From Natronococcus sp. AD-5 (GTDB taxonomy: Archaea; Halobacteriota; Halobacteria; Halobacteriales; Natrialbaceae): a DNA stretch of 64,000 bases. Each line of letters begins with the position of its first letter. Positions within the stretch are counted from its first letter, which is position 1. Location of the stretch: the NCBI RefSeq assembly GCF_030734285.1, contig NZ_CP132294.1, positions 558,001 to 622,000 on the forward strand. Direction: 5' to 3'. Below the pieces are notes generated by a model, which was not told where the DNA came from, made no database searches, and saw only the letters and a program-made list of their open reading frames with translations. The translations under genes were made by a program, and so were the position numbers. Below, piece after piece: positions 23,257 to 38,432 of this stretch.

Positions 23257-23312
23257 TCGACGCTCGGACGCGGGTACCGCATTGGCTACCGAACCGCCCG
23301 TTCAGGGACGCC

Positions 23313-23319
23313 TTATAAG
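23313..23319 (+). promoter_or_regulatory. TATA box upstream of a small membrane ORF
   Basis: TTATAAG is a strong archaeal TATA box in GC-rich surroundings, 26-32 nt before the GTG at 23345. The spacing matches a leaderless transcript. It supports a gene here or a promoter reading into cbiA. Confidence 0.6.
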
Positions 23320-23344
23320 ACCGGCGTCGTAGAACCTGACTACC

Positions 23345-23497
23345 GTGACTCGAAACCGCACGCGAACGGATACCGAATCGTCGCTGTCGGCCTGTCGCTG
23401 CGCCCTCGTCGGCGCCGGCGTAGTCGGCCTGGTCGTCGCGGTCGGTAAATTACGCTCTCGCCACCGAACCCGGCCGCGGTTCACCGCACCGTTTTGA
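23345..23497 (+). CDS. Putative 50-residue single-pass membrane protein
   Basis: A GTG-started frame of 50 residues. It has a polar, Arg/Thr-rich N-terminus, two Cys (ACRCA), a hydrophobic helix ALVGAGVVGLVVAVG and a basic C-terminus. The support is the well-placed TATA box and the coherent topology; there is no recognisable homology. It ends 70 bp before cbiA and could be the first gene of that transcript. Alternatively the promoter belongs to cbiA alone and this frame is an untranslated leader. Confidence 0.4.
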   Translation: MTRNRTRTDTESSLSACRCALVGAGVVGLVVAVGKLRSRHRTRPRFTAPF

Positions 23498-23567
23498 TTC
23501 GGTTCGCGTATTCGAACTCCCCGAGTACACCGACGGATTCAAGTCGAGTTGTACTAACGAAAAGACG

Positions 23568-24884
23568 ATGATGAACGGGTTCGTCCTCGGCGGCGTCAGC
23601 TCCGGCGTCGGGAAGACCGTCGCGACGCTCGCAGTTCTCCAGGCCCTCGAGGACGCCGGCTACGACGTCCAGCCCGCGAAGGCGGGGCCGGACTTCATCG
23701 ACCCGAGCCACCACGAGGCGGTCGCGGGGCGGCCCTCTCGCACCCTCGATCTGTGGCTCTGCGGGGAGGACGGCCTTCGGCGCAACTACCGCCGCGGCGA
23801 GGGCGACGTCTGCGTCGTCGAGGGCGTCATGGGACTGTACGACGGCGACGGCTCGAGCACCGCGATGGTCGCCGAAGCGCTCGACCTGCCGGCGGTCCTC
23901 GTCGTCGACGCGAGCGCGGGGATGGAGAGCGTCGCGGCGACGGCGCTCGGCTTCCGCGAGTACGCCCGCCGAATCGGCCGCGACGTCGAAGTTGTCGGAA
24001 TCGTCGCCCAGCGCGCCCACGGCGGTCGCCACGAGCAAGGGATCCGAGACGCGTTGCCCGACGACCTCGAGTACTTCGGGCGGATTCCGCCGAACGACGA
24101 CCTCGAGATTCCCGACCGCCACCTCGGCCTCGAGATGGGCGCGGAGGCGGCGCTGCCCCGAGAGGCGCTGCGGGAGGCGGCCGAGACGCTCGAGGGCGAG
24201 CGACTGGCGTCGGTGGCGAGCGAGCCGCCGGCCGTCGAGTCGACCGGACGGGCGTCGGATCCGGAGCCGGTCGACGCCCGGATCGCCGTCGCCAGCGACG
24301 CGGCCTTCTGCTTCCGGTATCCGGCCACGATCGAGCGCTTCCGAGAGCGGGCCGACCTCGTGACGTTCTCGCCGGTCGCGGGCGATCCGGTCCCTGACTG
24401 CGACGGCGTCTACCTCCCCGGCGGCTACCCCGAACTGCACGCCGACGAACTCGAGGCCGCCGGCACGCTCGCGGAACTCGGCGAGCGCGCGAGCGACGGC
24501 CTGCCGGTGCTCGGCGAGTGCGGCGGCCTGATGGCGATGAGCCGGTCGCTGACGACCGCCGACGGCGAGCGCAGCGAGATGGCCGCCATTTTGCCGGCGG
24601 ACGTGTCCGTGCACGACCGCTACCAGGCGCTCGATCACGTCGAACTCGAGGCCGTCGACGGGACGCTCACCGCAACCGCCGGCGAGACGATTCGAGGGCA
24701 CGAGTTCCACTACTCGAGCGCCGACGTCGACGGCGACGCCCGCTTCGCCTTCGAGACGGTTCGGGGCGACGGCATCGACGGCGAGCACGACGGCCTTACC
24801 GAGTACGACTCGCTCGGCACCTACGCCCACGTCCACCCCGAGAGCGGAGCGTTCGATCGGTTCCTCGAGGCGCTCTCCTCCTGA
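23568..24884 (+). CDS. cbiA: Cobyrinate a,c-diamide synthase
   Basis: A 438-residue CbiA. The N-terminal ATPase of the dethiobiotin-synthetase fold has the P-loop GGVSSGVGKTV. The C-terminal class I glutamine amidotransferase has its Cys in LGECGGLMAMS and a late His in YAHVHPES. It amidates the a and c side chains of cobyrinate using glutamine and ATP. Two in-frame ATGs (23568 and 23571) are adjacent, and either could start the protein. It lies alone between the FDH region and the cbiT operon. Confidence 0.93.
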   Translation: MMNGFVLGGVSSGVGKTVATLAVLQALEDAGYDVQPAKAGPDFIDPSHHEAVAGRPSRTLDLWLCGEDGLRRNYRRGEGDVCVVEGVMGLYDGDGSSTAMVAEALDLPAVLVVDASAGMESVAATALGFREYARRIGRDVEVVGIVAQRAHGGRHEQGIRDALPDDLEYFGRIPPNDDLEIPDRHLGLEMGAEAALPREALREAAETLEGERLASVASEPPAVESTGRASDPEPVDARIAVASDAAFCFRYPATIERFRERADLVTFSPVAGDPVPDCDGVYLPGGYPELHADELEAAGTLAELGERASDGLPVLGECGGLMAMSRSLTTADGERSEMAAILPADVSVHDRYQALDHVELEAVDGTLTATAGETIRGHEFHYSSADVDGDARFAFETVRGDGIDGEHDGLTEYDSLGTYAHVHPESGAFDRFLEALSS

Positions 24885-24951
24885 TCGGTTCGCCGTCGTT
24901 CTACCGATCGACCGTCCGCAACGGAGCCGCTGCACCCCCCGTGATCCCGTC

Positions 24952-24969
24952 GTTCAGCCCCGGCTGAAC
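24952..24969. promoter_or_regulatory. Perfect inverted repeat between cbiA and cbiT
   Basis: GTTCAGCC and GGCTGAAC are 8-bp complementary arms separated by CC. The repeat lies 67 bp after cbiA and about 100 bp before cbiT. A two-base loop is poor for an RNA hairpin, so a protein-binding palindrome is as likely as a cbiA terminator. Confidence 0.4.
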
Positions 24970-25033
24970 AACGCTACTTGTGTTATCGAAACTAAGGATG
25001 AGCAATGACACTTGATCTAACCCAACCACAATT

Positions 25034-25040
25034 GTTTTAG
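25034..25040 (+). promoter_or_regulatory. TATA-like box for the cbiT operon
   Basis: GTTTTAG lies 26-32 nt before the ATG at 25066, the expected spacing for a leaderless transcript. The operator-like palindrome begins directly after it. Confidence 0.45.
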
Positions 25041-25060
25041 TGGATGCGACAGTCATCCAC
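25040..25060. promoter_or_regulatory. Operator-like inverted repeat at the cbiT promoter
   Basis: GTGGATG, a 7-nt spacer CGACAGT, and CATCCAC form a perfect 7-bp inverted repeat. It fills the space between the TATA-like box and the start codon, where a bound protein would block initiation. It is a strong candidate for the site of a cobalamin or cobalt repressor controlling the cbi operon. No second copy was seen at cobN, chlID or cbiA. Confidence 0.5.
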
Positions 25061-25065
25061 GGGTG

Positions 25066-25677
25066 ATGCCACCCATCGCGCTGCCACACGACGCGAAGGC
25101 GGGACCGACCAAGCCGGAGGTCCGCGCCGTCGTCCTCTCGAAGCTCGCGCTCGCCGAGGACGATCACTTCGCGGAGGTCGGCTCCTGTACGGGGGCCGTC
25201 ACGATCGAGGCCGCACGGAGAGCCGGGCGGGTAACCGCGCTCGAGCGGAAAGCCGAACGGCTCGAGACGACGGAACAGAACCTCGCGGCGAACGAGGGAG
25301 CGGTTCGTGCCGACGTCGAGTTGCGCAACGCGGAAGCGCCCGAGGGGCTGCCCGAGGACGCCGACGCGCTCTTTCTCGGCGGCAGCCGGAACTTCGAAGC
25401 CGTGCTCGATCGCGCGGCCGAGACGGGCGTCGACCGCATCGTGATGAACGTCTCGCGCCTCGAGGTCGCCGGCCGGGCGACCGAGGCGTTCCGGGAGCGC
25501 GACCTGCTCGAGGAAGTCGTGCAGTTCCAGGTGAGCCACGGCTACGAGCTCGCCGGCGCGACGAGTTTCAACTCGGACAACCCGGTCTACATGCTGGTCG
25601 GCAGCGCGACCGACAACGACGCGGACGGAGACGACGGAAAGCGGGTCGCCGCCGACGGTGGGGGATCGCAGCGATGA
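25066..25677 (+). CDS. cbiT: Cobalt-precorrin-6B C15-methyltransferase, decarboxylating
   Basis: A 203-residue class I SAM methyltransferase with motif I in FAEVGSCTGAVTIEAAR and an acidic LERK after strand 2. The opening GPTKPEVRAVVLSKLAL is the CbiT hallmark. It methylates C15 and decarboxylates the C12 acetate side chain. A GTG at 25063 is directly followed by the ATG at 25066; I take the ATG. It overlaps cbiL by 4 nt and heads the main cobalamin operon. Confidence 0.92.
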   Translation: MPPIALPHDAKAGPTKPEVRAVVLSKLALAEDDHFAEVGSCTGAVTIEAARRAGRVTALERKAERLETTEQNLAANEGAVRADVELRNAEAPEGLPEDADALFLGGSRNFEAVLDRAAETGVDRIVMNVSRLEVAGRATEAFRERDLLEEVVQFQVSHGYELAGATSFNSDNPVYMLVGSATDNDADGDDGKRVAADGGGSQR

Positions 25678-26501
25678 CGCTCTACGGCGTCGGACTCGGT
25701 CCCGGCGAGGCCGACCTCGTGACCGTCCGCGGGAAGCGAGTGCTCGAGGAGTGCGACGTGGTCTACTCCCCCGGCCGACTCTCGCGGTCCGTCGCGCTCG
25801 AGCACGTTTCCGAGGAGCGGATCGGCGACCTGGACTTCCCGATGACGAAAGACGAGGAGAAGCTTCGAGCGGCGTGGAAGGAGGCCGCGGCGGAGATCGC
25901 GCCGAACGCGCGCGACGGCGACGTCGCCTTCGTCACGCTCGGCGATCCGAACGTCTACTCGACGTTCGGTCACCTGCGCCGGACGATCGACGCCTTCCAC
26001 CCCGACGTCGAGCTGGAGATCGTCCCCGGCGTCAGCGCGGTGACGGCCTTCGCGACCGCGCTGGGCGTCGAGATCGAGGCCGGTGCGGGGCTCTCGCTCC
26101 GGGAGGCCGCCGCGGGGGCCAGTCCCACGGGGCCGGACCGAATGATCCTGTTCAAAGTCACCGACGCGCCGGCGACCCACGAGGGGCTCGTCGACGCGGG
26201 CTACGAGGTGACCTACGGCCGGCGGCTGTTCATGGAGCAGGGCGAGACGGTCGTTACCGACGACCCGGAGGAGATCGACGAGCGCGACTACTACACGCTC
26301 GCCTACGCCGAGAAGGCGGACCTCGAGATCGAGCGGGCGACGGCTGCCTTTGCGCGGGAAGCCGGCGCTGACGAGACCGGTGAGTCCTCGAGCGAGGCGG
26401 AGGCGACGGGAACCGAGCCGGTCGCCGACGGGGGCGACCGAGAGGTCGAGGAACTCGAGCGCGCCGAGGGCTGCGAACACGGCGACTGCGGAGGGCACTG
26501 A
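25674..26501 (+). CDS. cbiL: Cobalt-precorrin-2 C20-methyltransferase
   Basis: A 275-residue tetrapyrrole methylase. LYGVGLGPGEADLVTVRG, FVTLGDPNVYSTF and IVPGVSAVTAFA are diagnostic of CbiL. It methylates C20 of cobalt-precorrin-2, the product of CbiX acting on sirohydrochlorin. The last 50 residues are an acidic extension ending in CEHGDCGGH, a Cys/His cluster not needed for the fold that could hold a metal ion. Confidence 0.93.
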   Translation: MTLYGVGLGPGEADLVTVRGKRVLEECDVVYSPGRLSRSVALEHVSEERIGDLDFPMTKDEEKLRAAWKEAAAEIAPNARDGDVAFVTLGDPNVYSTFGHLRRTIDAFHPDVELEIVPGVSAVTAFATALGVEIEAGAGLSLREAAAGASPTGPDRMILFKVTDAPATHEGLVDAGYEVTYGRRLFMEQGETVVTDDPEEIDERDYYTLAYAEKADLEIERATAAFAREAGADETGESSSEAEATGTEPVADGGDREVEELERAEGCEHGDCGGH

Positions 26502-26502
26502 G

Positions 26503-27423
26503 ATGACGGAACCGGACTCGAACGATGCCGAGACGAACGGCGATCCGCAGAAGGCGATCGACGCGCAAGGAGACCGCCGCCGGGAGGAACTGGACGATCG
26601 GATCTTCGAGCACGGCGCCGGCGACGAACAGGAGGGGATCCCCTTCGTCGGCGCCGGTCCCGGCGACCCGCGGCTGCTGACGGTGGCCGGGAAGGAACTG
26701 CTCGCGGACGCCGACCTCGTCGTCCACGCGGGCTCGCTGGTCAACAGCGAACTCTTGGACGCGTACTGCGGCCACGCGGAGCTCGTGAACTCGGTCGGCA
26801 AGGACCTCGAGGAGCTGATCCCGCTCATGCGGGACGCGTACGAAGAGGGACGGAACGTCGTTCGGCTCCACAGCGGCGACCCCGCGATCTACGGGGCGGC
26901 GCTCGAGCAGATGGACGCGCTCGAGCACGAGGGCGTGCCGACCTACTTCGTGCCGGGCGTCACCTCCGCCTTCGCCGCGAGCGCGACGCTGCGGACGCAG
27001 CTGACGCTCAATGAGGTCTCGAACCACGTCGCGTTCACCCGGCCGCAGGGCAAGACCCTGAGCCCGGAGGAGGACCACGTCTCCGACTTCGTCGAGATGG
27101 GCGACGTGACGACCTGCATCTACCTCGGGACCCACGCGGTCCGGGACACGATGGATCGCCTGCTCGAGGACGGCCACGACCCCGAGACGCCGGTCGCGGT
27201 CGTCTACCACGCGTCCTGGCCGGACGAGGACGTCATTATCGGCTCAGTTGGCGACATCGCGGACAAAGTCGAGGAGGCAGGATACCGGGCGTCGGCACTC
27301 GTCGTGATCGGCGACGCCGTGACCGGCGCGGGCTACGAGCGATCCTACCTCTACGGCGACTGGGCCAATCGAGGTTCGTCGTCGTCGGAGACCACGAGCG
27401 AACCGGAGGCGAGCGATGACTGA
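26503..27423 (+). CDS. cbiF: Cobalt-precorrin-4 C11-methyltransferase
   Basis: A 306-residue protein with an acidic 45-residue N-terminal extension before IPFVGAGPGDPRLLTVAG. VRLHSGDPAIYGA, VPGVTSAFAASA and VVYHASWPDEDVI identify CbiF/CobM, which methylates C11. It starts 1 nt after cbiL ends. The C-terminal tail is Ser/Glu-rich. A 264-bp gap holding an intergenic repeat separates it from cbiG. Confidence 0.93.
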   Translation: MTEPDSNDAETNGDPQKAIDAQGDRRREELDDRIFEHGAGDEQEGIPFVGAGPGDPRLLTVAGKELLADADLVVHAGSLVNSELLDAYCGHAELVNSVGKDLEELIPLMRDAYEEGRNVVRLHSGDPAIYGAALEQMDALEHEGVPTYFVPGVTSAFAASATLRTQLTLNEVSNHVAFTRPQGKTLSPEEDHVSDFVEMGDVTTCIYLGTHAVRDTMDRLLEDGHDPETPVAVVYHASWPDEDVIIGSVGDIADKVEEAGYRASALVVIGDAVTGAGYERSYLYGDWANRGSSSSETTSEPEASDD

Positions 27424-27450
27424 GACCCGTCTGAATAGGGACCGCAAACA

Positions 27451-27620
27451 GGATGAAAGCCCTCGGACCGCTCGAGTCGGGGGGCAAGCGAGTCGCTTCG
27501 CGTCTCGCTGCTCTTCGCTCGCTTTCGCTCGCGAAGACCTCGCTGCGGTCCTCGGCCGACGGCCTGCGGTCCTTGCGTCGTCCGCCTTCCCCGAGCGGGC
27601 TGACCCCTTTCAGTCCCACC
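27451..27620 (-). repeat. Intergenic structured repeat element, copy A
   Basis: Read on the minus strand, the element begins GGTGGGACTGAAAGGGG (27620-27604) and ends GAGGGCTTTCATCC (27464-27451). Inside the ends, CCGCTCG and CGAGCGG can pair, and the interior has repeated GGACCGCA words. It fills the cbiF-cbiG gap and inverts the orientation of copy B at 52045-52157, with which it shares both ends and the GGACCGCA words. There is no coding capacity. It could be a MITE-like mobile element or an RNA structure within the cbi transcript. Confidence 0.6.
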
Positions 27621-27687
27621 CGGGCGGTGGTCTAGACGGGTCATCGGAGCGTGGAACGGACGTTTTCGGCACGACGGAGGTTTGATC

Positions 27688-28683
27688 ATGAGTTCAGGAA
27701 GCAAGAACACGGACGGCACAGGCGACTCGAGTACGGACTCCGGCGGCCACTGCTCTACGCCCGATTCGGACGGCGAAGTCGCGGAGGAGATCGCGATCGT
27801 CTCCTTCGGGCGGAAGATGGACACCGCCGAGGAGATCAAGGCAGAGATCGGCGACCGCTACGAGTCGATCGAGATCCTCGAGTACCACGGCGACGTCTTC
27901 GAGGAGCACTGGGGCGAGTACGACTGCTTTATCGGCCTGATGGCCTCCGGGATCGCGATGCGCAAGACGGCCCACCTGCTCGACGACAAGTGGGAGGACC
28001 CCGCGATCTGCGTCGTCGACGAGGAGCTGACGTGGGCCATCCCGATCACTGGCGGTCACCACGGCGCCAACCAGGTCGCGCAGGACCTGGCGACGATGGG
28101 CGCCGTACCGGCGATGACCACCGCGAGCGAGGCCGCGGGAAAGCAGGGCGTCGAGTCCCGCGCGAAGGCGATGGACGCCCACGTCGTCAACGGCGAGTCG
28201 ACGGTCAAGACGAACCTCGCCGTGCTGGACGACGACCTCGGTCCGGTGGCCCGAGTCGACGGCCCGAAAGCGGTGCTCGTCGGCGACGACGTCACCGTCC
28301 TCAAGCGGAACACGGACGACGGCGTCGTGCTCGGCACCGGCAGCGTCTCCGGCGCGAGCAAGGAGTCGTTCCTCGCCGCGTGGGAGGAAGCGCTCGAGCA
28401 GACCGAGTACGACGTCTCGGACGTCGAGTTCGTCGGGACCGCAACGCGGAAGGAAAAGGAGGAAGGGCTGCTCGAGGCCGCCCAAGAGCTCGACCTCGGC
28501 GTCGTCGTCTTCGACAAGGAGACGCTGCTCGAACACGAGGGGCCGACGCCCTCGAAGTCGAAGGAACTGATCGGCTGGCCGGGCGTCTCCGAAGCCTCCG
28601 CGATTGCGGGCGGACGCGAGCAGGAACTGGTGCTCGAGAAGATCAGCTACGAAGACGAAGTCACGGCGGCGATCGGCCGATGA
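27688..28683 (+). CDS. cbiG: Cobalt-precorrin-5A hydrolase
   Basis: A 331-residue CbiG that opens the delta-lactone of cobalt-precorrin-5A and releases acetaldehyde. YDCFIGLMASGIAMR and VVDEELTWAIPITGGHHGAN are the conserved core, and a C-terminal CobE-like domain carries FVGTATRKEKEEG. The ATG at 27688 has a clear Shine-Dalgarno GGAGG at 27676-27680, so it can be translated internally in the operon mRNA past the repeat. The first 30 residues are a polar tail. It overlaps cbiH by 4 nt. Confidence 0.93.
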   Translation: MSSGSKNTDGTGDSSTDSGGHCSTPDSDGEVAEEIAIVSFGRKMDTAEEIKAEIGDRYESIEILEYHGDVFEEHWGEYDCFIGLMASGIAMRKTAHLLDDKWEDPAICVVDEELTWAIPITGGHHGANQVAQDLATMGAVPAMTTASEAAGKQGVESRAKAMDAHVVNGESTVKTNLAVLDDDLGPVARVDGPKAVLVGDDVTVLKRNTDDGVVLGTGSVSGASKESFLAAWEEALEQTEYDVSDVEFVGTATRKEKEEGLLEAAQELDLGVVVFDKETLLEHEGPTPSKSKELIGWPGVSEASAIAGGREQELVLEKISYEDEVTAAIGR

Positions 28684-29600
28684 GTTCGGACGTCGATCCT
28701 GCGACCGCGGAGGCGGACGCAGACGCGAACGCGGAGACGGAGGCGAACGCAACAGCCGCCGGAACCCCCGACGAACACGGCACCCTCTACGTCGTCGGCA
28801 TCGGCCCCGGTCTGCCGGATCAGATGACGAAGCGAGCGAAGGCGGTCATCGAGTCCGCCGACGTGGTCATCGCCTCGAGCCTCTACCAGACGTTCCTTCG
28901 GGACGACGGCACCCTTCCGCCGGAGGAGCGAACGGACGAGGACGGAATCGCCACCCGCGAGGATGGTTTCGAACAGGAGATCGTCCGCTCGACGATGGGA
29001 CGACAGATAGAACTCGCTCGAGCGGCGTTCGACTACGTCCGCGAGGGGAAAGACGTCGCCCACGTCTCGGGTGGCGATCCCTCCGTCTACGGCAAGTCGG
29101 ACCTCATCTTCAAGATGGCCGAGGAGGAGGACGCGACGGACGTTCCGATCGAGATCGTTCCCGGCCTGACCGCGGCGCTGGGCGGCGCGGCGAACGTCGG
29201 CGCGCCGCTGTGCAACGACTTCTGTACCGTCTCGCTGTCGGACAAGTGGCGCGGCTGGGACGAGATCGAAGAGAAGCTTCGCGCGGCGGCGATCTCGGAC
29301 TTCGTGATCGTCCTCTACAACTGCTGGCGCAACTACGAGCGGGCCGTCGAGATCGTCCGCGAGGAGCGAACCGACGACGCCCTCGTGGCGATCGTCAACG
29401 ACGCCGGCCGCGCCGACGCCGGCCGCAACGGCGAGGGCGAGTTCATCACCACCCTCGGCGAGGCCGCCGACCACGACGACAAGGTGTCGGGGATGGGCAC
29501 CTCGCTGATCATCGGCAACCACGAGACCGAGACCTGGAGCAACGACGACCGAACGTACCTCGTCACCCCGCGCGGCGGGCGTGACGTCGACGACTTCTAA
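28680..29600 (+). CDS. cbiH: Cobalt-precorrin-3B C17-methyltransferase, copy 1
   Basis: A 306-residue CbiH/CobJ-type methylase. LYVVGIGPGLPDQMTKRA, VAHVSGGDPSVYGKSD and IVPGLTAALGGAANVGAPLCNDFC mark the family. CbiH methylates C17 and contracts the ring. An acidic/Ala-rich tail of about 35 residues precedes the fold. It is followed 3 nt later by a second CbiH-like gene, so the roles of the two copies need separating. Confidence 0.9.
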   Translation: MSSDVDPATAEADADANAETEANATAAGTPDEHGTLYVVGIGPGLPDQMTKRAKAVIESADVVIASSLYQTFLRDDGTLPPEERTDEDGIATREDGFEQEIVRSTMGRQIELARAAFDYVREGKDVAHVSGGDPSVYGKSDLIFKMAEEEDATDVPIEIVPGLTAALGGAANVGAPLCNDFCTVSLSDKWRGWDEIEEKLRAAAISDFVIVLYNCWRNYERAVEIVREERTDDALVAIVNDAGRADAGRNGEGEFITTLGEAADHDDKVSGMGTSLIIGNHETETWSNDDRTYLVTPRGGRDVDDF

Positions 29601-29603
29601 GAC

Positions 29604-30644
29604 ATGAGCACGGACACCAACGCAGACGCTGACGCCGAATCGACATCGAAATGCGGTGCGTCGACGACCGAGAGCGACGCGGACGCCTCGTCCTCGGGTT
29701 CGAAGTGCGGTGCATCCTCGAGTACCACGGACGACTCGAGTAGCACGTGCGGCGCCTCGAGTAACTCGTCTTCGTCCTCCTCGAGCACCTGTGGCGCTTC
29801 GTCCTCGAGTTCGAACGACTCGAGCGGCAACGAGCGGGAGGTCGGCGCAACCGTCGCGGACTTCGACGCCGACCCCGGCCGGCTGACCGCGGTCGGACTC
29901 GGTCCCGGCCACCCCGAGGGAATGACCGAACGCGCAAAGACGGCGCTGCTCGAGGCCGAGCACGTCGTCGGCTACACGACCTACATCGAACTCATTCCGA
30001 ACGAGATCACGAAGGCGGCCGACGAGCTCTACGACACGCCGATGTGCGGCGAGGTCTCCCGCACGGAGGAGGCGATCGATCGCACGCTGGCGGGCAACGA
30101 CGTGGCGATCGTCGGCAGCGGCGACCCGAACGTCTACGCGCTCGCCGGACTGGCGCTCGAGATCTTAGAGTCCAAGGGTGCGACGGCATCGATGGTCGAC
30201 TTCGACGTCGTGCCGGGCGTCCCCGCGGCCCAGTCCTGCGCGGCGCGACTCGGCGCGCCGTTGGTGAACGACACCGTCTCGGTCTCGCTGTCGGACCACC
30301 TCGTGCCGATGCCCGAGATCGAGTCCCGGCTCCACGCGGTCGCGAGCGAGAACTTCACGATCACGATCTACAACCCGTGGAGCCGCAAGCGCCGAGAGAA
30401 CTTCGAGAAGTGCTGCGAGATCCTCCTCACCCATCGGGACAAGGGGACGCCGGTCGGCATCGTCCACGGCGCCGGCCGCGAGGACGAGCAGGTGATGATC
30501 ACCGAACTCGGCGAACTCGAGGAGCTGGGCGAGAGCGAAATTATCGACATGACGACGACGATCGTCGTCGGCACCGAGGACACCTACGTCTGGGACGACC
30601 GGATGGTGACGCCGCGGGGCTACGAGACGAAGTACGACTACTGA
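29604..30644 (+). CDS. cbiH2: Cobalt-precorrin-3B C17-methyltransferase, copy 2, with Cys/Ser repeat tail
   Basis: A 346-residue paralogue of the preceding CbiH. The methylase core starts near residue 90 (LTAVGLGPGHPEGMTERA) and includes IVGSGDPNVYALAG and VVPGVPAAQSCAARLGAPL. The first 75 residues are low-complexity Ser/Asp/Thr with four spaced copies of CGAS, placing Cys at 17, 35, 49 and 63. Free Cys repeats are rare in haloarchaeal cytosolic proteins, so a metal- or cluster-binding tail is plausible. A ferredoxin gene follows 2 nt later. In other systems ring contraction needs an Fe-S protein partner, which makes a redox role for this copy attractive but unproven. Confidence 0.88.
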   Translation: MSTDTNADADAESTSKCGASTTESDADASSSGSKCGASSSTTDDSSSTCGASSNSSSSSSSTCGASSSSSNDSSGNEREVGATVADFDADPGRLTAVGLGPGHPEGMTERAKTALLEAEHVVGYTTYIELIPNEITKAADELYDTPMCGEVSRTEEAIDRTLAGNDVAIVGSGDPNVYALAGLALEILESKGATASMVDFDVVPGVPAAQSCAARLGAPLVNDTVSVSLSDHLVPMPEIESRLHAVASENFTITIYNPWSRKRRENFEKCCEILLTHRDKGTPVGIVHGAGREDEQVMITELGELEELGESEIIDMTTTIVVGTEDTYVWDDRMVTPRGYETKYDY

Positions 30645-30646
30645 TC

Positions 30647-30913
30647 ATGCCACAGTACCAGATCACCGTCGAGAAGGACGCCTGCGACGGCATCTTCGCC
30701 TGCCTGACCCGCGATCCGAGGTTCGTCGAGGGCGAGGACGGCCTCGCGACGATCGATCCGGACGCGGACCCCGTCTACGACTGCGAGGGAGCGGTAACCG
30801 ACACCGAAGAGCGCGTCGTCGCGACGTTCGACGACGACCGCGTCGACGAGGCCAAACAGGCCGCCGCGGCCTGTCCGACGGATGCGATTATCGTCGAGGA
30901 GGTGAGCGAATGA
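30647..30913 (+). CDS. fdx: Ferredoxin-like protein of the cobalamin operon
   Basis: An 88-residue protein with CDGIFAC near the N-terminus, a lone Cys in VYDCEG, and AACPTDAIIVEE at the end. This is the pattern of a single-cluster (3Fe-4S or 4Fe-4S) ferredoxin related to the P. furiosus type. Four Cys are available but the first motif is C-x5-C, not CxxCxxC, so the cluster type is uncertain. It overlaps the next gene by 4 nt. It probably supplies electrons to a reductive or ring-contraction step. Confidence 0.8.
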   Translation: MPQYQITVEKDACDGIFACLTRDPRFVEGEDGLATIDPDADPVYDCEGAVTDTEERVVATFDDDRVDEAKQAAAACPTDAIIVEEVSE

Positions 30914-31629
30914 GCGAAACTGCACCAGCCGAGGAGGAATCGGATCCGGTCGAACTCGAAGTACCCGCGGACCCGCTGGCGGGCCACCCCGCGACGGCCT
31001 ACTTCTGGGGCCACGTCGCCGCTGCCGGCGACGTTTCCGATGACGGCATCGAGGTCGTCACGAACGACGAGGCGTCCGCGCGGGTGCTCGCTGCCGTCGC
31101 GGGCGGCGACGTCGGGCGCGACACCACGAGCCGCGAGTACGCCCACGACGCGTCGATCACGCGAACGGAAGACGAGTACACGCTCTCGATCGGCCGGGAT
31201 GAGGGTGCGGGTGACGGCCCGGGCCTACTCGGTCGCAGCGGCGCGCTCGGCCTCCCCGTCGACGGCCGCGGCAACTACCGCTTCGGCGCGTTCTCGAGCC
31301 ACGATCGGGAACTGCTCCGGGGGCTGCTCGAGGGCTGTGGCACCGTCTGCTTCAAGTCGAAGAGCGGGACCGTCGGCATCTCGTTCGTCCACGACGACCG
31401 GGAGCTGCTCGAGCTAACCCAGGAGCTGATCGACGACTGTCCGGTCGACGCGCCGTTCGGCGAACTCTCGGAGACGTCCTCGGGCGGCTACTGGTTCGGC
31501 GTCGACGACGCCGCCGCGCCGGCGTTCGGCACCTGGCTCTACGAGACCTGCGAGGAGACCGGCTGCTTCGCCCCGAGCCGTCGTCGAAAGCTCGAGAAGA
31601 GCCTCGAACGGGCGGAGTCGTACGACTAA
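30910..31629 (+). CDS. Cobalamin-operon protein with two degenerate LAGLIDADG-like repeats
   Basis: A 239-residue protein of the kind that recurs at this position in haloarchaeal cobalamin operons and has no assigned function. It has two internally similar halves. The first begins AYFWGHVAAAGDV (31-42), the second ELLRGLLEGCGTV (134-146). Each is followed by a pattern like GIEVVTNDEASARVL and GTVGISFVHDDRELLELTQELI, as in LAGLIDADG endonucleases and the WhiA family. The position of the catalytic acid is Ala39 in one repeat and Cys143 in the other, so DNA cleavage is unlikely. I infer a domesticated DNA-binding or scaffold protein. The Cys-rich second half (CGTVCF, DDCPVD, CEETGCF) could sense metal or redox. 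The fold assignment is by eye only. Confidence 0.65.
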   Translation: MSETAPAEEESDPVELEVPADPLAGHPATAYFWGHVAAAGDVSDDGIEVVTNDEASARVLAAVAGGDVGRDTTSREYAHDASITRTEDEYTLSIGRDEGAGDGPGLLGRSGALGLPVDGRGNYRFGAFSSHDRELLRGLLEGCGTVCFKSKSGTVGISFVHDDRELLELTQELIDDCPVDAPFGELSETSSGGYWFGVDDAAAPAFGTWLYETCEETGCFAPSRRRKLEKSLERAESYD

Positions 31630-31662
31630 CGCGACACACCGCACGAATCGACGGACCCACGA

Positions 31663-32901
31663 ATGCATCACACGACCGACGCCGCATCCGGCACCGACGC
31701 GCTCGCGGCCTTCGACGACGAGGCCGTCCTGCTGATCGGCCACGGCTCCCGGCGCGAGAAGTCGAACGACCAGGTGCGGGAACTGGCCGCCGGCCTCGAG
31801 TCCCGCCTCGGGATCCCGGTCGACGCCGCGTTTCTCGAACTCGCGGAGCCGTCGATCGACGAGGCGGTCGCCGAACTCGCGCCCGTCGTCTCGCGGGTGA
31901 CCGCCGTCCACTGCTCGCTGTTCGCCGCGAGCCACGTCAAGAACGACGTACCGCTGGCGATCGAGCGCGCTCGCGCCGCACACGACCTCGAGATCGACGC
32001 CGGCGCACACCTGGGTATCCACCCGGCGATCCTCGACCTGCTGGACGATCGCGCTGCGACCGTCGAGCGCGAACTCGGCGTCGACCGCGAGCGCGACGAC
32101 GTCGCCGTCGCGCTCTGCGGCCGCGGCTCGAGCGATCCGGACGCCAACGGCGACGTCCACAAGTTGGCCCGGTTACTCTACGAGGGGCGGGAGTTCGACC
32201 GGGTCGAGGCGACCTTCGTCGGCGTCACGGAGCCGACGCTCGAGGAGACCCTCCACGGGCTCTCGAAGCACCGGCCCGATGCGGTCGTCGTCCTCCCGTA
32301 CATGCTCGGCGACGGGGTTCTCACCCAGCGAGTGCGGGACTGGACGGCCGACTTCAATGACGAGTGCCCCTACGTCGACGCGCTGGCGGGCGACCCCCTC
32401 GGAACGGACTCGCGGCTGCTCGACGTCTTCGCCGACCGCTGGCAGGAAGCGCGCACCGCGAGCGTCGAGATGTCCTGTGACACGTGCAAGTACAAGGTCG
32501 ATCTCGAGGGCTACGAGGAGGACGTCGGCGGCGCGCGGGCCATGCTCCGCGCGCTGGCCCACCGGGACGCCCACGCCGACCGCGAGGACGTCGACGACGA
32601 GCCTCACAGCCACGACGCGCCGGGGAACCACGTCGCGGTCTGTACCAACCGGACCTGCGCCGACACGGGCTCGCCCGCGGTGCTCGAGCGGCTTCGACAG
32701 GAAGTCCGCGACTCCGACCACTGCGACGCCCGCATCACGCGGTCGTCGTGTCTCGGCCGCTGCGGCGACGGCCCGATGGTCGCCGTCTATCCCGACGGCG
32801 TCTGGTACGGCGACGTCGGGGAGGCGGACGCCGAACGAATCGTCGCCGACCATCTCGATCGGGATCGCGTCGTCAGCGACCTCGTCGATCAGATCCTGTA
32901 G
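31663..32901 (+). CDS. cbiX: Sirohydrochlorin cobaltochelatase CbiX with C-terminal Fe-S domain
   Basis: A 412-residue protein with two CbiX-like halves. The first has LLIGHGSRREKSND with the metal-handling His. The second has ALCGRGSSDPDAN and VVVLPYMLGDGV. A CxxC (SCDTCKYKV) follows near residue 270. The last 100 residues resemble a thioredoxin-like 2Fe-2S ferredoxin: CTNRTCADTGS, then SCLGRCGDGPMVAVYPDGVWY. CbiX puts cobalt into sirohydrochlorin at the start of the anaerobic route. The fused Fe-S domain and a His/Asp-rich stretch (about 305-320) are extras over the minimal enzyme. Confidence 0.9.
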   Translation: MHHTTDAASGTDALAAFDDEAVLLIGHGSRREKSNDQVRELAAGLESRLGIPVDAAFLELAEPSIDEAVAELAPVVSRVTAVHCSLFAASHVKNDVPLAIERARAAHDLEIDAGAHLGIHPAILDLLDDRAATVERELGVDRERDDVAVALCGRGSSDPDANGDVHKLARLLYEGREFDRVEATFVGVTEPTLEETLHGLSKHRPDAVVVLPYMLGDGVLTQRVRDWTADFNDECPYVDALAGDPLGTDSRLLDVFADRWQEARTASVEMSCDTCKYKVDLEGYEEDVGGARAMLRALAHRDAHADREDVDDEPHSHDAPGNHVAVCTNRTCADTGSPAVLERLRQEVRDSDHCDARITRSSCLGRCGDGPMVAVYPDGVWYGDVGEADAERIVADHLDRDRVVSDLVDQIL

Positions 32902-32949
32902 TATCGCGCTGCAACCGACCGATCACCCACGCAACTACAACGAATCACT

Positions 32950-33321
32950 ATGAGCTGTCACGAAATCGAAGCGCTACGACTCGGACTGATGAACGTCCTC
33001 GGCGTCGGGGACCGAAGCACCCGCGAACACGCGGAGACGGAACTCGAAGGCCACCTCGAGGGGCCGATCGAAGGGCTCGCCGAGGCCGAGAGCCTCGCGG
33101 AGATCGAGCGGCACCTGGACGCCGCGCTGGTCGATCTCGAGGAGGAGGTCGCCGCGATGGACGCGGACGACCCCGAGTACGACTACACACGGGGGCGCCT
33201 CCTCGAGGTGCGAAACGCCGAGCGAGCGGTACAGCGCCTTCGCGTCCAGGGCGAGAGCGTCGTCGACGGACTCGGCGAGGCCCACGACACGCTTCACGAG
33301 ACGTTCCCCGTAGCGGAGTGA
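32950..33321 (+). CDS. DUF3209-type cobalamin-cluster protein
   Basis: A 123-residue, all-helical, strongly acidic protein beginning MSCHEIEALRLGLMNVLG. The N-terminal S-C-H-E-I-E plus the later AHDTLHETFP suggest conserved Cys/His positions. It matches my recollection of DUF3209, a haloarchaeal family found next to cbiX. No catalytic motif is visible. Its place 48 bp after cbiX and 2 nt before the propeller gene suggests co-transcription. Metal delivery or a scaffold role is speculation. Confidence 0.75.
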   Translation: MSCHEIEALRLGLMNVLGVGDRSTREHAETELEGHLEGPIEGLAEAESLAEIERHLDAALVDLEEEVAAMDADDPEYDYTRGRLLEVRNAERAVQRLRVQGESVVDGLGEAHDTLHETFPVAE

Positions 33322-33323
33322 GC

Positions 33324-34664
33324 ATGGCGGAGGCAGACACCGAACGCGACGAATCCGATCGGGACGCGGCGTTTCGACGGCGCTCCCTCGGCGAGATCGA
33401 GAGCGCCCGCAGCCGACACATGTGGACTCGCTCCGCCGTCCACGCGGCAGACGACGTCGTTATCACGGGCCAGTGGGACGGGACGGTCGCGGCTTTCGAC
33501 CTCGACTCGCTCGAACCCCGATGGTCCGTCGAGCACCCGAATCACGCGGCCGGGATCGCGACGCTCGGCGGCGGGGAGACCGAGAGCGAGAAGACCGCGG
33601 TCGTCGCCGGGCGCGGCGACACAGGGACGATCGCGGCGTACGACCTCGAGACGGGCGAGACGCGCTGGCGGTACGACACCGCCGACGACGTCGGCGAACC
33701 GGGAATGGACTCCGTCTTCTACCTGCCCTACGTCGTCGCCCTCGAGGTCGACGACGGCGACGGCGACGACCGATTGTACGCGGCGGCCCGCCGCTACGAG
33801 CGCGACGGCGAGACGCGGCGGTGGCACAGCACGGTGCTCGCGTTCGACGCGGACGGCTCGGTCCGCTGGCGATACGAGGCCGACGCCTCTCCCGTCGCGA
33901 TCGACCTGCGCGACGACGGCGAGCGCCTGGCGGTCGGCTACAACCGCTGCACGGGCGACCACGACAACGGGCTGGTCGTCCTCGAGGCCTGCGCGACGAC
34001 GGAGTCGTCGCGAAACGGAGGTGGTGAAACCGCCGGAGGGGGCGGCGACCTCGCGTGGACCTGGGATCCCGGCACCGAGGGGGATCGCCGCGTCGGCGAC
34101 GTCTCGTTCGACGGCGACTCGATCGCGGTCTCGAGCCACGGCGATAAACGCGGGTACCTGCTGGAGTCGGGCGGCGCCGAGCGGTGGGCCGTGGATCTGG
34201 CGGTCGAAACCGAAATAGGGGGCGAGACGCTGTACGCGTATCCGAATCACGCTCACGCGAGCGACGGACGGATCGCGTTCGTCACCGGGAACACCTACGC
34301 CGAGGAGAGCCGCGAGACGGAGAACCGGCACCCGAACGAGCACCGAATCGTCGCCTTCGACGAGGACGGGGACGTCCTCTGGGACGCCGAACTTCGAGGC
34401 TTCGTCCACGAACTCGCGACCGACGGCGCGACGATCATCGCCCCCTGCGCTCAGAACTTTCGGGTTCGGGATCCCGACACGCACGCGATCCGTCGGTTCG
34501 ATCTCGAGTCCGGCGAGGGTGGGCTCGAGCGCCTCGAGGGGATCGCCACCGCGGCGACGATCGACGGCGGGACGGTCGCGGCGATCGAGGAACCGGTCGC
34601 GTACCACGACGACGGCAAAACGCGCGGCAAGTACGCGGTTCGCGTCGGCTCGCTCGAGCAGTAA
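33324..34664 (+). CDS. PQQ-type beta-propeller protein of the cobalamin cluster
   Basis: A 446-residue protein of repeating blades such as GTVAAFDLDSLEPRWS, GTIAAYDLETGETRWRY and STVLAFDADGSVRWRY, as in BamB/PQQ-repeat propellers. It has no signal peptide or lipobox, so it is cytoplasmic, unlike bacterial BamB. Seven or eight blades fit the length. Propellers of this kind act as binding platforms; a substrate or partner in cobalamin synthesis is inferred only from the operon position. It starts 2 nt after the DUF3209 gene. Confidence 0.8.
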   Translation: MAEADTERDESDRDAAFRRRSLGEIESARSRHMWTRSAVHAADDVVITGQWDGTVAAFDLDSLEPRWSVEHPNHAAGIATLGGGETESEKTAVVAGRGDTGTIAAYDLETGETRWRYDTADDVGEPGMDSVFYLPYVVALEVDDGDGDDRLYAAARRYERDGETRRWHSTVLAFDADGSVRWRYEADASPVAIDLRDDGERLAVGYNRCTGDHDNGLVVLEACATTESSRNGGGETAGGGGDLAWTWDPGTEGDRRVGDVSFDGDSIAVSSHGDKRGYLLESGGAERWAVDLAVETEIGGETLYAYPNHAHASDGRIAFVTGNTYAEESRETENRHPNEHRIVAFDEDGDVLWDAELRGFVHELATDGATIIAPCAQNFRVRDPDTHAIRRFDLESGEGGLERLEGIATAATIDGGTVAAIEEPVAYHDDGKTRGKYAVRVGSLEQ

Positions 34665-34794
34665 GCGCGATCGATTCTTCGGAACGAACGAGTTACTGTC
34701 ACGAAGTTTTTCACTGTCCGTCGTACCGAGATCGCTGGTGTACATACGCAAGGCAAACCACCACAACGCTCACTCTCGTGTTTTTTCTCGTATA

Positions 34795-35790
34795 ATGACA
34801 ACGAGTCCAGCAAATGATGGCTCGGAGGAGTGTTCGGACCCCGAACGGGTCGGGGCTTCCTCGACGCCGTCACGGGAGGTCGATCCGGCGGATCGAGGAT
34901 CGCGGCGAGCGGTGACCGACGGCGGTCAAGCGCAAGAGGCGGAAGACGAGGACGAAGCCGCCGAGCAAGCCGACGACGAGGATGCAGAAGCGGCCGAGGA
35001 CGAAAGTGAGGAAGCCGAGGACGAGGAGGCCGAAGAAGCGGCGGAGGACGAGGCCGAAGAAGCCGAACCGGAGGAGGAAGCTGAAGACGGGGAAGGGGAC
35101 GGCGAAGACGAAGAGACGGCGGACGAGGGGGACGAAGAAGCGGAACCCGAAGACGAGGAAGGAGAAGACGAAGAAGGCGAAGAGGAGGAATACCACGTCG
35201 AGGATGCCGAGGATGTCTACCAGGACGAAGACGTATCGAGCGTCCTTCACCTCGATCTCGACGGGTTGTTCCTGGACCTGCTCGGACTCGAGGTCAACCT
35301 GAACCCGGTCACACTCGACGTCTCCGCACGTCCGGGCGAGAACAACCTGCTCGGAAACCTCCTGTCGGCGGTTACCGGATTGCTCGACGGCTCGAGCGCG
35401 GTCACGGACACCGTCAAGTCGCTACTGGGTAAGCCGAAGGAACTCCTCGGCAGCTTCCCGGGTAAACTCAAGGAGTTCTTCGGCGGCCTGCTGCGCAAGC
35501 CGCGAGAGTTCCTCGGCGGGCTCTTCGGCGGAGCCGAGGAAGGAGAAGCGGACGAAGAGGAGGTCGAAGGCGAGGAAGCGCCAGAGGAGGAAGCGACCGG
35601 GAACGGTCGGCTCTCCTCTGCAGCCGGCTGGCTGAAGCAGAAGCTGATCGGTCTCATTCCGGGCTTCCCGATCGAGGAACTCGTGGCGGCGATCGTCAGG
35701 GAAGTGATCGAGACGCTGCTCGAACGGGTGGAACCGGAGGGCGAAGAAACGAACGCGCAGTCTGAAGCGACGTCGCAGACGGAGGCCTAA
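34795..35790 (+). CDS. Hyperacidic protein with amphipathic LLG/FFG repeats
   Basis: A 331-residue protein. Residues about 40-140 are nearly pure Glu/Asp/Ala. A conserved-looking beta-rich block follows (LHLDLDGLFLDLLGLEVNL, then LDVSARPGENNLLGNLL), a kind I recall from actinobacterial and haloarchaeal proteins of unknown function. After it come four related amphipathic motifs: LLGKPKELLG, FPGKLKEFFGG, LLRKPREFLGG and a final IGLIPGFPIEELV. There is no signal peptide. It heads a four-gene operon; each of the next three genes shares the acidic style. A membrane- or granule-surface role is plausible but unproven. Confidence 0.7.
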   Translation: MTTSPANDGSEECSDPERVGASSTPSREVDPADRGSRRAVTDGGQAQEAEDEDEAAEQADDEDAEAAEDESEEAEDEEAEEAAEDEAEEAEPEEEAEDGEGDGEDEETADEGDEEAEPEDEEGEDEEGEEEEYHVEDAEDVYQDEDVSSVLHLDLDGLFLDLLGLEVNLNPVTLDVSARPGENNLLGNLLSAVTGLLDGSSAVTDTVKSLLGKPKELLGSFPGKLKEFFGGLLRKPREFLGGLFGGAEEGEADEEEVEGEEAPEEEATGNGRLSSAAGWLKQKLIGLIPGFPIEELVAAIVREVIETLLERVEPEGEETNAQSEATSQTEA

Positions 35791-35792
35791 TC

Positions 35793-36242
35793 ATGAGTGA
35801 CGAATCCGACTCTCTGTCCCAGCGGATCGACTACGAAAAGATCACCCAGAACATCAACGTCAACGACCTCGTCGAAGGAACGCAGTGGGAAGACGAGATC
35901 GACGAAGACGAACCGCTCGGCGAGACCCTCGGCGGACTGATCGGCGCGGTCATCGGCCGGAAACTCGGTGAAAGTATCGGCCGCACGATCGGGGAACTCG
36001 TAGTCGACGAACTGCTCAGCGCCGAACCGGAGGAAGAAGAAGCGGACGAAGCCGAAGAGGCTGACGAGGAAGCGGAAGCCGAGGAGGGCGAAGAAGCGGA
36101 AGGCGAAGACGGAGAAGACGAAAGCGAAGCCGACGACGAGGAGGGCGAGGCGGGCGACGACGAAAACCAGGACGAGGAGACCGAGGACGAAGGGACGGAA
36201 GGCGAGGAAGCGGAAGAAACCGACGAGGACGAGGGGGATTAG
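35793..36242 (+). CDS. Glycine-zipper protein with hyperacidic tail, paralogue 1
   Basis: A 149-residue protein with a Shine-Dalgarno GGAGG at 35781-35785, 7 nt before the ATG. Residues about 45-75 form a glycine zipper (LGETLGGLIGAVIGRKLGESIG) able to pack as a helix pair or insert in a membrane. Residues 80-149 are almost only Glu, Asp, Ala and Gly. It starts 2 nt after the preceding gene and shares its zipper with the next protein. Confidence 0.7.
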   Translation: MSDESDSLSQRIDYEKITQNINVNDLVEGTQWEDEIDEDEPLGETLGGLIGAVIGRKLGESIGRTIGELVVDELLSAEPEEEEADEAEEADEEAEAEEGEEAEGEDGEDESEADDEEGEAGDDENQDEETEDEGTEGEEAEETDEDEGD

Positions 36243-36295
36243 CGCCGTGATATCGGATCGTCTCACCGACCGGAATCGATTCGAGGTGGATCGCG

Positions 36296-37018
36296 ATGAG
36301 TGACGGCTCCGGGCTGAAGAACCTCGTCGCCGAGGAGGTCAGCGAACAGGTCGACGTCGCGGACCTGCTCGGCGACGGAAACCTCGAGGATAGCATCGAC
36401 GGCGGCGACGTCGGGGCGTCCGTCGGCCGGCGGTTCGGCGAGCGGATCGGCCGCGAGATCGGCGCGGCGATCGGCCGCGAGATCCACGAGACGATCGAGG
36501 AGGGACTCGAAGAGGGAAAGGAGCTCCGCGAGGTGAGATCGGAGCTTCCGTCGGCGATTCGCGAGGCCTTCAGCGACGCGGCCGGGGAGACCGTCGACCG
36601 CGACGCGGTGGAGTCGGTGGCCCAGAACGTCACCGAAGGCAGCAGCCTCGAGGGAATTCTCGAGAGCGACGAGGCGGAGGAAGACGAGGAAGCCGAGACC
36701 GAGGAACCAGAAGGCGAGGAGGTGGCCGAAGAAGCGGAACCCGAAGACGAGGCGATGCCCGACGAAGACGAACCGTCGGCAGAGGACCTCGAGGACCTTC
36801 GGCGGGAAACACTTGAGGACTTCCTCGGCGTACTATCCTACCAGGACCTGCAGTCGGTCGCGAAGGACGTCGGCGTGAAGGCGAACCTCAGTCGGGAGGA
36901 GATGATGGAGGAGATCATCGCGGAGGTGTCGGATGCGGACGACGGTGAGGCCGACGACGGGTCCGAAAACGATGCAGACGACGGGACCGACGACGAGGTG
37001 AAAGCGGAATCGGAGTAA
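36296..37018 (+). CDS. Glycine-zipper protein with SAP/Rho-N-like C-terminal domain, paralogue 2
   Basis: A 240-residue protein. The opening LVAEEVSEQVDVADLLGD parallels the start of its upstream neighbour (ITQNINVNDLVEG). A glycine zipper follows (VGASVGRRFGERIGREIG), then a helical region, an acidic linker, and a 40-residue helix-extended-helix (LEDFLGVLSYQDLQSVAKDV). That last module resembles SAP or Rho-N domains, which bind nucleic acid or partners. A GAGGTG Shine-Dalgarno lies 7 nt before the ATG. The function is unknown. Confidence 0.7.
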   Translation: MSDGSGLKNLVAEEVSEQVDVADLLGDGNLEDSIDGGDVGASVGRRFGERIGREIGAAIGREIHETIEEGLEEGKELREVRSELPSAIREAFSDAAGETVDRDAVESVAQNVTEGSSLEGILESDEAEEDEEAETEEPEGEEVAEEAEPEDEAMPDEDEPSAEDLEDLRRETLEDFLGVLSYQDLQSVAKDVGVKANLSREEMMEEIIAEVSDADDGEADDGSENDADDGTDDEVKAESE

Positions 37019-37071
37019 CGGAATCTGCTCACGGACGGCACACGACACGGCGACGAAGCGGAGGACGACAA

Positions 37072-37845
37072 ATGACTGACCAACTCCACGACCGGGTGAA
37101 CGAGGTACTGAACGAGGCCGACGCCGAAAGCCGTTCGGTGCTGGCGTCGGACGACGGCGAGAGCCGCGAGGCCGAACGCGACCTGCTCGAGGCCGCCGAC
37201 GAGGCCAGCGAACTCCTCGAAACGGCGGACCCGCGGGAGCTACTCGAGGCCCTCGGTCTCGGAACGCTTCCCGACGGCTCGGAACCGGACACGCTTCCGG
37301 AGGCGATCGCGAACGGCGATCCCGAGCGCGTCGAGGAACTCCATCGACTGTTGCGCCTCGCGAGGCTCGCCGACCGGTCGGACGACGAGGAACTCGAGGA
37401 CGCGGTCGGCGGACTCCGCGAAACGATCGACCGAGCGCAGACCGGCGAGGACGACACGATGACAGACGACACTGACCAGAACGAGACCGAACAGGAGTCG
37501 ACGAACGGCGACGGCGCGGCCGACGACCTCGGAGAGCGGCTTCGATCGGCGATGAGTTCGTCGTTTGAGGACTTCGACGACGAACTCACCGCGATGCAGG
37601 ATCGAATCGAGGACGCGGCTTCGACGGTGACGGACGACGAAGCCGACGAAGACGCCGAAGACGAGGCGAGCGAAGCCGACGAAGGCGAGGAAGACGGTGA
37701 CGACGGGCTCCTCGGATTGGGCGGCGAGGACGGACTCGGCTCGAGCGATTCGTCTCGGCTCTCGACGATGGCGCCGCCGCCCTCCGAACGGGCGGATATG
37801 CGCGCGGTGAAGCGACACTCGACGATGCCGAAGAAGAAGGACTAG
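37072..37845 (+). CDS. Acidic two-part protein with basic STM-containing tail
   Basis: A 257-residue protein. The first half is a helical acidic domain (NEVLNEADAESRSVL to DRAQTGEDD). A second half starts at an internal Met (MTDDTDQNETEQE, codon 37459) and ends in a basic tail with RLSTMAPPP and RHSTMPKKKD. GGAGG lies 7 nt before the first ATG. GAGG with very similar context precedes the internal ATG, so a shorter 128-residue product is possible. It is the last gene of the acidic operon. The basic tail contrasts sharply with the acidic partners and could dock onto them. Confidence 0.7.
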   Translation: MTDQLHDRVNEVLNEADAESRSVLASDDGESREAERDLLEAADEASELLETADPRELLEALGLGTLPDGSEPDTLPEAIANGDPERVEELHRLLRLARLADRSDDEELEDAVGGLRETIDRAQTGEDDTMTDDTDQNETEQESTNGDGAADDLGERLRSAMSSSFEDFDDELTAMQDRIEDAASTVTDDEADEDAEDEASEADEGEEDGDDGLLGLGGEDGLGSSDSSRLSTMAPPPSERADMRAVKRHSTMPKKKD

Positions 37846-37923
37846 TAGCGACGACCTGGACTCGAATCGGAACCGCCTCGGCCGGCGGTCGAGTTCGATT
37901 TGCAGGCTAGAGCGGGCTGAAGC

Positions 37924-37930
37924 CTTATTC
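37924..37930 (+). promoter_or_regulatory. TATA-like box for the DUF2299-like gene
   Basis: CTTATTC lies 23-29 nt before the ATG at 37953, so this gene probably has its own leaderless transcript separate from the acidic operon. Confidence 0.45.
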
Positions 37931-37952
37931 GGGCGCTCGTGGACGGATCCGT

Positions 37953-38432
37953 ATGTCGACGCACGTGAGCGAAACGCAGGTACAGGAGTGGCTGGACGAC
38001 ACGGCGATCAGTAACGTAACCCGCCACAGTGACGAGGAGACCGCGTTCAACTTCCAGGTCGAACTCTCACGGCTCCCGATACACGTGATCAAGGAGACCG
38101 AGTTCGGGCCGGTCCAGATCGTCGGTCGGAGCGGATTCGACACCGACGCGGCCAAAACGCTGCTTCGAGACGATCAGCGGCGCGGAGAACTGCTCAAGTA
38201 CGTCGGACCGATGCTCGCCGCGACGCCGGGGTTCTACACGTTCCTCGACGAAGACGAGGCGTCCTGCGAGCTACGGGAGGCGGAGACGATCCAGGTCGAG
38301 TACCGCATCTATCCGGACGAAGCGAGCCAGCAGGCGCTGATGGACGGAATCATGTCGATCGCGACGAGCATGCGGTACATTCAGAACGTCATCGCGGGGG
38401 TGTCGGCTCGAGATCCGGTTACCGGCAAGTGA
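37953..38432 (+). CDS. DUF2299-like archaeal protein
   Basis: A 159-residue alpha/beta protein starting with a helix (VQEWLDDTAI) and then alternating strands, including FNFQVELSRLPIHVIKE and TIQVEYRIYPDE. Size and order fit DUF2299, an archaeal family with a chaperone-like YbjN/T3S-chaperone fold. There is no catalytic signature. It stands just after the hyperacidic operon and could be its chaperone, which is only a positional guess. Confidence 0.6.
   Translation: MSTHVSETQVQEWLDDTAISNVTRHSDEETAFNFQVELSRLPIHVIKETEFGPVQIVGRSGFDTDAAKTLLRDDQRRGELLKYVGPMLAATPGFYTFLDEDEASCELREAETIQVEYRIYPDEASQQALMDGIMSIATSMRYIQNVIAGVSARDPVTGK

Follow-up and report, generated by a model that had tools for sequence, protein, structure and literature searches.

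Few domesticated LAGLIDADG proteins are known, the standard example being WhiA, a bacterial transcription factor (DUF199). The two studies of its LAGLIDADG domain considered here come from different bacteria: in Streptomyces the isolated domain is unable to footprint DNA (PMC3781837), and in Mycoplasma the domain was reported to bind DNA and to respond to ATP (PMC11701221). A second described system is CbiX-L of Bacillus megaterium, in which an Fe-S centre is combined with a His-rich region; these were proposed to serve in metal storage or delivery and are dispensable for chelation (PMC7689651). Among the cob cluster genes of Haloferax volcanii, HVO_B0055 and HVO_B0056 are unassigned and were named in a 2021 review as obvious candidates for the missing EC 2.1.1.195 and EC 1.3.1.106, a gap-filling role being proposed generally for four unassigned haloarchaeal cob cluster genes; the synteny of these genes is conserved, and the main text of the review gives HVO_B0055 neither fold nor function (PMC8305020). 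Here, we analysed the counterpart of HVO_B0055 in Natronococcus sp. AD-5, a gene for a LAGLIDADG-fold protein that we call LAGL.

Gene neighbourhood and distribution

In the 64,000-nucleotide stretch of DNA that was analysed (hereafter the window), LAGL encodes a 239-amino-acid protein and was assigned by position as the ortholog of HVO_B0055 (Table 1). Plasmid records label its orthologs only as "cobalamin biosynthesis protein" or "hypothetical protein". An earlier note on this DNA had located the gene inside the cob operon, between a ferredoxin gene and cbiX, and the same placing recurs in the 80 loci of the haloarchaeal orthologs that we retrieved. Upstream lie the Fer4_15 ferredoxin, cbiH2, cbiH1 and cbiG, and downstream cbiX and a DUF3209 gene. 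The ferredoxin and the CbiX core adjoin LAGL in 80/80 loci; the 2Fe-2S domain of CbiX and DUF3209 were found in 76 of the 80 LAGL-bearing loci, three of the four misses falling in loci that have too little downstream sequence. Translationally coupled to LAGL, the ferredoxin gene shares 4 nt (ATGA) with it in the window, where its stop codon runs into the LAGL start codon; a simple scan recovered the ferredoxin frame in 69 loci, and 63 of these have a 4-nt overlap. The modeled DUF3209 protein (pLDDT 95) matches the uncharacterised TTHB059 (2ehw; TM 0.81-0.86, 35% identity), and the N-terminal tail of CbiH2 is a low-complexity Ser/Asp sequence with repeated CGAS cysteines. In the cob cluster of Leptospira, DUF3209 and CbiD come after a 2Fe-2S CbiX, and both LAGL and the ferredoxin are absent from the stretch read; a 2Fe-2S CbiX as such therefore does not need LAGL.

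Table 1. Features of the LAGL locus and of the cob operon promoter region (positions are those of the window)
Feature	Position	Strand	Details
22-bp pseudo-palindrome TAACCCAA-N6-TTGTTTTA	25018-25039	+	upstream of cbiT; operon operator/promoter element
cbiH2	29604-30644	+	N-terminal Cys-rich CGAS-repeat tail at about 29604-29867
Small single-cluster ferredoxin (Fer4_15)	30647-30913	+	Pfam E 2.7e-14; present in 80/80 loci
LAGL, LAGLIDADG-fold protein gene	30910-31629	+	open reading frame, AlphaFold2 and Foldseek, Pfam and HMM-HMM comparison, 80 syntenic orthologs
LAGL repeat 1, AYFWGHVAAAGDV	30997-31035	+	residues 30-42; position 8 is Ala39 (S/D/N in orthologs)
LAGL repeat 2, LLRGLLEGCGTV	31312-31347	+	residues 135-146; position 8 is Cys143 (Cys in 80/81)
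LAGL C-G-T-V-C	31336-31350	+	residues 143-147; former catalytic position and invariant Cys147
LAGL C-terminal helix, conserved P-SRRRKL	31573-31623	+	residues 222-238
cbiX	31663-32901	+	two CbiX domains and a C-terminal thioredoxin-like 2Fe-2S domain at about 32626-32847; Pfam CbiX, 2Fe-2S_thioredx
DUF3209 helical protein	32950-33321	+	same fold as Thermus TTHB059 (2ehw)

Of 391 Halobacteria genomes, 204 contain LAGL and 210 contain the haloarchaeal CbiG; the two sets, compared by reading the two lists, share 202 genomes, leaving eight with cbiG and without LAGL and two with LAGL and without cbiG. Every LAGL match in a phylum sample of 393 genomes falls within Halobacteriales, and phage records held no relative. 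One divergent homolog, from the most distant relative, stands outside the cob operon (genome G021, L206, reverse strand, 4542-7557). This 198-residue protein (profile E 1.4e-31) retains CGTIC as well as the Ala-His of the region around His79, and its gene is flanked by two cation-diffusion-facilitator-like transporters, with a rhodanese-like gene adjacent (neighbours named from sequence); this locus, from one genome, would bring the family closer to metal handling than to promoters. In another genome (G014, L207, reverse strand, 5325-6254), the linker joining the two LAGLIDADG repeats of the LAGL ortholog contains a long insert of SNAT repeats, and the profile match falls into two parts as a result.

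LAGLIDADG ancestry and loss of the active site

The LAGLIDADG family LAGLIDADG_3 (PF14528) of Pfam matches 27 of the 39 diverse orthologs that were aligned, with a best E of 3.6e-5, and the window protein alone reaches only a sub-threshold E of 0.12. An independent LAGLIDADG profile was assembled from 30 PF14528 matches in the haloarchaeal genomes of relatives, most of them in long intein-like open frames. Compared with this profile by hhalign, the 39-ortholog alignment matched with its N-terminal half at E 1.5e-4 and with its C-terminal half at E 6e-5, the motif being in register in both cases, and the best of 20 column-shuffled controls of the C-terminal half reached E 3.6e-3. Direct comparison of the two halves was not significant (E 0.56), so that the repeat claim rests on the match of each half to the outside profile and on the structural model. 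A PDB sequence search with the LAGL profile returned chance matches only.

The structure was modeled with AlphaFold2 without templates, from an input alignment made of orthologs only (pLDDT 87.5, pTM 0.84). The model has two alpha-beta-beta-alpha-beta-beta halves in which the motif helices lead into strand 1, the order being helix 27-39, two strands, helix 54-64 and two strands, then helix 125-143 together with the strand and helix elements of repeat 2. Foldseek against the PDB ranked WhiA (3hyi) at the top with E 8e-7, followed by I-Tsp061I, I-DmoI, the bI3 maturase and intein endonucleases, and all 41 matches at E <= 1e-3 are WhiA, LAGLIDADG endonucleases, the maturase or endonuclease-bearing inteins. 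The Pfam matches, the half-by-half profile alignments, the predicted core topology and the structural search thus bear out the LAGLIDADG origin proposed in the earlier note, which had also recognised both repeats, the first of them starting at residue 30 and not at 31. The comparison that it drew with WhiA holds for the fold, WhiA being the nearest one solved, but LAGL is not a WhiA: at E<=1, Pfam matched neither the N-terminal domain of WhiA nor LAGLIDADG_WhiA, be it in the window protein or in any of the 39 orthologs, and no HTH was matched in LAGL, which ends at its C-terminal helix. There is little doubt that LAGL has a two-repeat LAGLIDADG fold, is homologous to LAGLIDADG proteins and has lost cleavage.

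Double-strand cleavage by single-chain LAGLIDADG enzymes depends on an acidic residue in each of the two motifs. The residues first read at position 8 of the two repeats, Ala39 and Cys143, were confirmed in the protein, and across its family the catalytic acid is lost from repeat 2 and variably from repeat 1: among 81 sequences, the window included, repeat 2 has Cys in 80 and Ser in one, and repeat 1 has S in 46, D in 31, N in three and A in one, so that Ala39 is particular to the window protein. Because repeat 2 has lost its acid and repeat 1 does not keep one stably, the family has very probably lost cleavage, and cutting of DNA by LAGL is very unlikely. A Cys-rich second half had likewise been put forward as a possible sensor of cobalt or redox state; Cys143 and Cys147 are conserved there, but the remaining cysteines are not. 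Also invariant on strands 1 and 2 of repeat 2 are Thr145, Lys149, Gly156 and Ser158, together with Cys147, whereas the matching strands 1-2 of repeat 1 are variable; on strand 4 of repeat 1, Thr84 is invariant, and Arg85, Glu87 and Tyr90 are nearly so. By analogy with I-CreI, the residues at +4 and +6 after position 8 face DNA. A face fixed on one half only would therefore be better suited to a partner protein or a small ligand than to a target of 20 bp. LAGL resembles the enzymes encoded next to it in net charge (-11 per 100 aa) and is more acidic than intein LAGLIDADG domains (-3.4).

Two types of cob operon

The eight genomes with cbiG and without LAGL consist of seven with a second type of operon, type B (G001, G007, G129, G269, G317, G318 and G359), and of G052. 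In type B, cbiT-L-F-G-H1-H2 is found without the ferredoxin and LAGL, and a His-rich tail replaces the 2Fe-2S domain of CbiX in all seven genomes, the His-tailed cbiX being located elsewhere in G317 and G359. The CbiH2 tail, which has at least three cysteines in 73 of the 80 type A loci, has none in 7/7 type B genomes; DUF3209 gave no match in the type B operon regions read, and CbiC is carried by the type B genomes. In G052 the operon is of type A, but an extra His-tailed CbiX (L144, 9706-10644) occupies the place of LAGL immediately behind the ferredoxin, and the normal CbiX still follows it. LAGL thus alternates with another metal-handling feature of CbiX; the link to CbiX in particular is not isolated, because the two operon types differ in several features at once. 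The second CbiH-like methylase, cbiH1 (28743-29600), is found in both types, which makes it a more obvious choice than LAGL for the C1 methylation that is missing.

Possible functions of LAGL

The assignment of a missing enzymatic step to LAGL would make it an enzyme or subunit filling the CbiD (EC 2.1.1.195) or the CbiJ (EC 1.3.1.106) step, to which the ferredoxin would supply electrons. The candidacy of HVO_B0055 and HVO_B0056 for these gaps (PMC8305020), the absence of both families from the window genome and the strict pairing of LAGL with the ferredoxin speak for such a role. LAGL itself has no Pfam match to CbiD or CbiJ, and these families gave no Pfam match in the eight cbiG-only genomes, nor in type A, control genomes being matched. 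The type B genomes, all seven of which have cbiT, L, F, G, H1, H2, CbiX and CbiC, do without CbiD/CbiJ, LAGL and the operon ferredoxin alike, and G052 lost LAGL alone; moreover, no SAM or NAD(P) site is known from LAGLIDADG folds. LAGL was rejected as a substitute for CbiD or CbiJ, and it is probably not the missing pathway enzyme, because the type B genomes and G052 lack both families as well, so that we regard this role as highly doubtful. Two other readings fare still worse. An RNA-binding or maturase-like action on the long cob transcript, brought to mind by the bI3 LAGLIDADG maturase among the structural matches, seems far-fetched, as no Rfam element reached the gathering threshold in window positions 18000-38000, no intron was seen and nothing points to an RNA target. 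A homing endonuclease that is still selfish and active, and that came into the operon recently, would share the fold, but the active-site acids are lost, the syntenic position is fixed in 80 loci, the gene is co-inherited with cbiG in 202 genomes and phage records contain no relative, and we give this last reading next to no credence.

The main rival is a WhiA-like DNA-binding regulator of the cob genes, whose saddle would read a promoter pseudo-palindrome of 20-22 bp and would be modulated by ferredoxin or metal through Cys143/Cys147. LAGLIDADG proteins read targets of the 20-22 bp length class. The cob operon does have a pseudo-palindrome of 22 bp, found not at 25040-25060, where the earlier note had placed a palindrome and where the sequence differs between relatives, but at 25018-25039. 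The pattern yTAnnnCAAnCnnnATTGTTTT is common to 44/44 cbiT upstream regions of types A and B, G052 having one mismatch and a few loci deviating at less conserved positions; the element TAnnnCAA-N6-TTGTTTTA lies mostly about 39 bases before the cbiT start and is conserved across haloarchaeal families, and among nine further loci G160 has only a poor match, at another position. The core pattern has a single perfect match in the 5.2-Mb window genome and one to two matches in each cob-operon genome checked. This near-uniqueness, the rank of WhiA as best PDB match and the DNA contacts and ATP response reported for the Mycoplasma WhiA LAGLIDADG domain (PMC11701221) are in favour of a regulator. Against it, the identical operator is conserved in 7/7 type B genomes without LAGL, from which it follows that LAGL is not a required operator-binding regulator and that another protein can serve the operator; in type A, LAGL may still touch it as well. 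A tie between the loss of LAGL in G052 and an altered operator was considered and rejected, the same variant occurring in the LAGL-bearing relative G167. LAGL has, furthermore, no HTH domain, is acidic and has a saddle conserved on one half only, and the LAGLIDADG domain of Streptomyces WhiA gives no footprint alone (PMC3781837). On balance, a regulatory role seems unlikely.

Of the options raised in the earlier note, a DNA- or RNA-binding regulator or a structural partner, the structural or binding partner is probably the likeliest. LAGL is inherited with the ferredoxin, the CbiX bearing a 2Fe-2S domain, DUF3209 and the Cys-tailed CbiH2, and this co-inheritance, together with the alternation described above, suggests an accessory protein of the Fe-S/cobalt module, a role that we propose tentatively and put slightly below an even chance. 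LAGL would then be a domesticated, cleavage-dead, single-chain LAGLIDADG protein fixed in a biosynthetic operon, a non-catalytic accessory of an Fe-S/thiol module that may work beside cobalt insertion by CbiX or beside a ferredoxin-linked step. The former active-site and DNA-contact face of repeat 2 (Cys143, Thr145, Cys147, Lys149, Gly156, Ser158) may now be fixed for holding a partner protein or a metal and no longer for recognising target DNA. Taken as a whole, domestication and accessory role together, we consider this explanation about evenly poised. The active site of homing endonucleases binds Mg2+ through aspartates. A more specific version, in which that site would have been rebuilt as Cys143/Cys147, perhaps with His79, holding cobalt or an Fe-S cluster passed on with the coupled ferredoxin, with delivery or gating of metal for CbiX, is distinctly improbable at present; if true, a selfish DNA enzyme would have turned into a cofactor-assembly factor.

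Comparison with known systems

The archaeal homing endonucleases I-DmoI and I-Tsp061I have the same monomeric two-repeat LAGLIDADG fold as LAGL (Foldseek E 2e-5 to 4e-4), but they keep their catalytic acids and sit in introns, features found on their side only. The LAGLIDADG_3 domains of haloarchaeal inteins (PF14528), whose profile homology is detectable for both halves of LAGL, differ from it in that LAGL is stand-alone, has no splicing domain, is more acidic and has lost the catalytic acids. WhiA (3hyi, also 8dy7 and 8dy9) is closest in being a single-chain, two-repeat, domesticated LAGLIDADG protein without catalytic residues; LAGL, in contrast, is archaeal, lies in a biosynthetic operon, has Cys in place of the repeat-2 acid and lacks a C-terminal HTH. 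LAGL would thus be a domesticated LAGLIDADG protein fixed in an archaeal metabolic operon, apparently without a DNA-reading HTH, and its co-inheritance with a ferredoxin and with one kind of CbiX suggests that an enzyme of selfish DNA has taken on a new house-keeping role.

In Haloferax volcanii, HVO_B0055 has the same position, beside cbiX1 (HVO_B0054), and HVO_B0056 adjoins cbiH2 (HVO_B0057). HVO_B0055, published among four obvious candidates for the two B12 steps that are missing, gains a fold and a testable role, and the comparison of operon types argues against its candidacy for those steps. The CbiX-L of Bacillus megaterium already shows that Fe-S and His-rich appendages of CbiX exist, both on one protein (PMC7689651), whereas in haloarchaea they are split over two operon types, one of them with LAGL. 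The comparison also tells apart two ways in which haloarchaea deal with cobalt, one by a Cys/Fe-S module and the other by a His-tail module.
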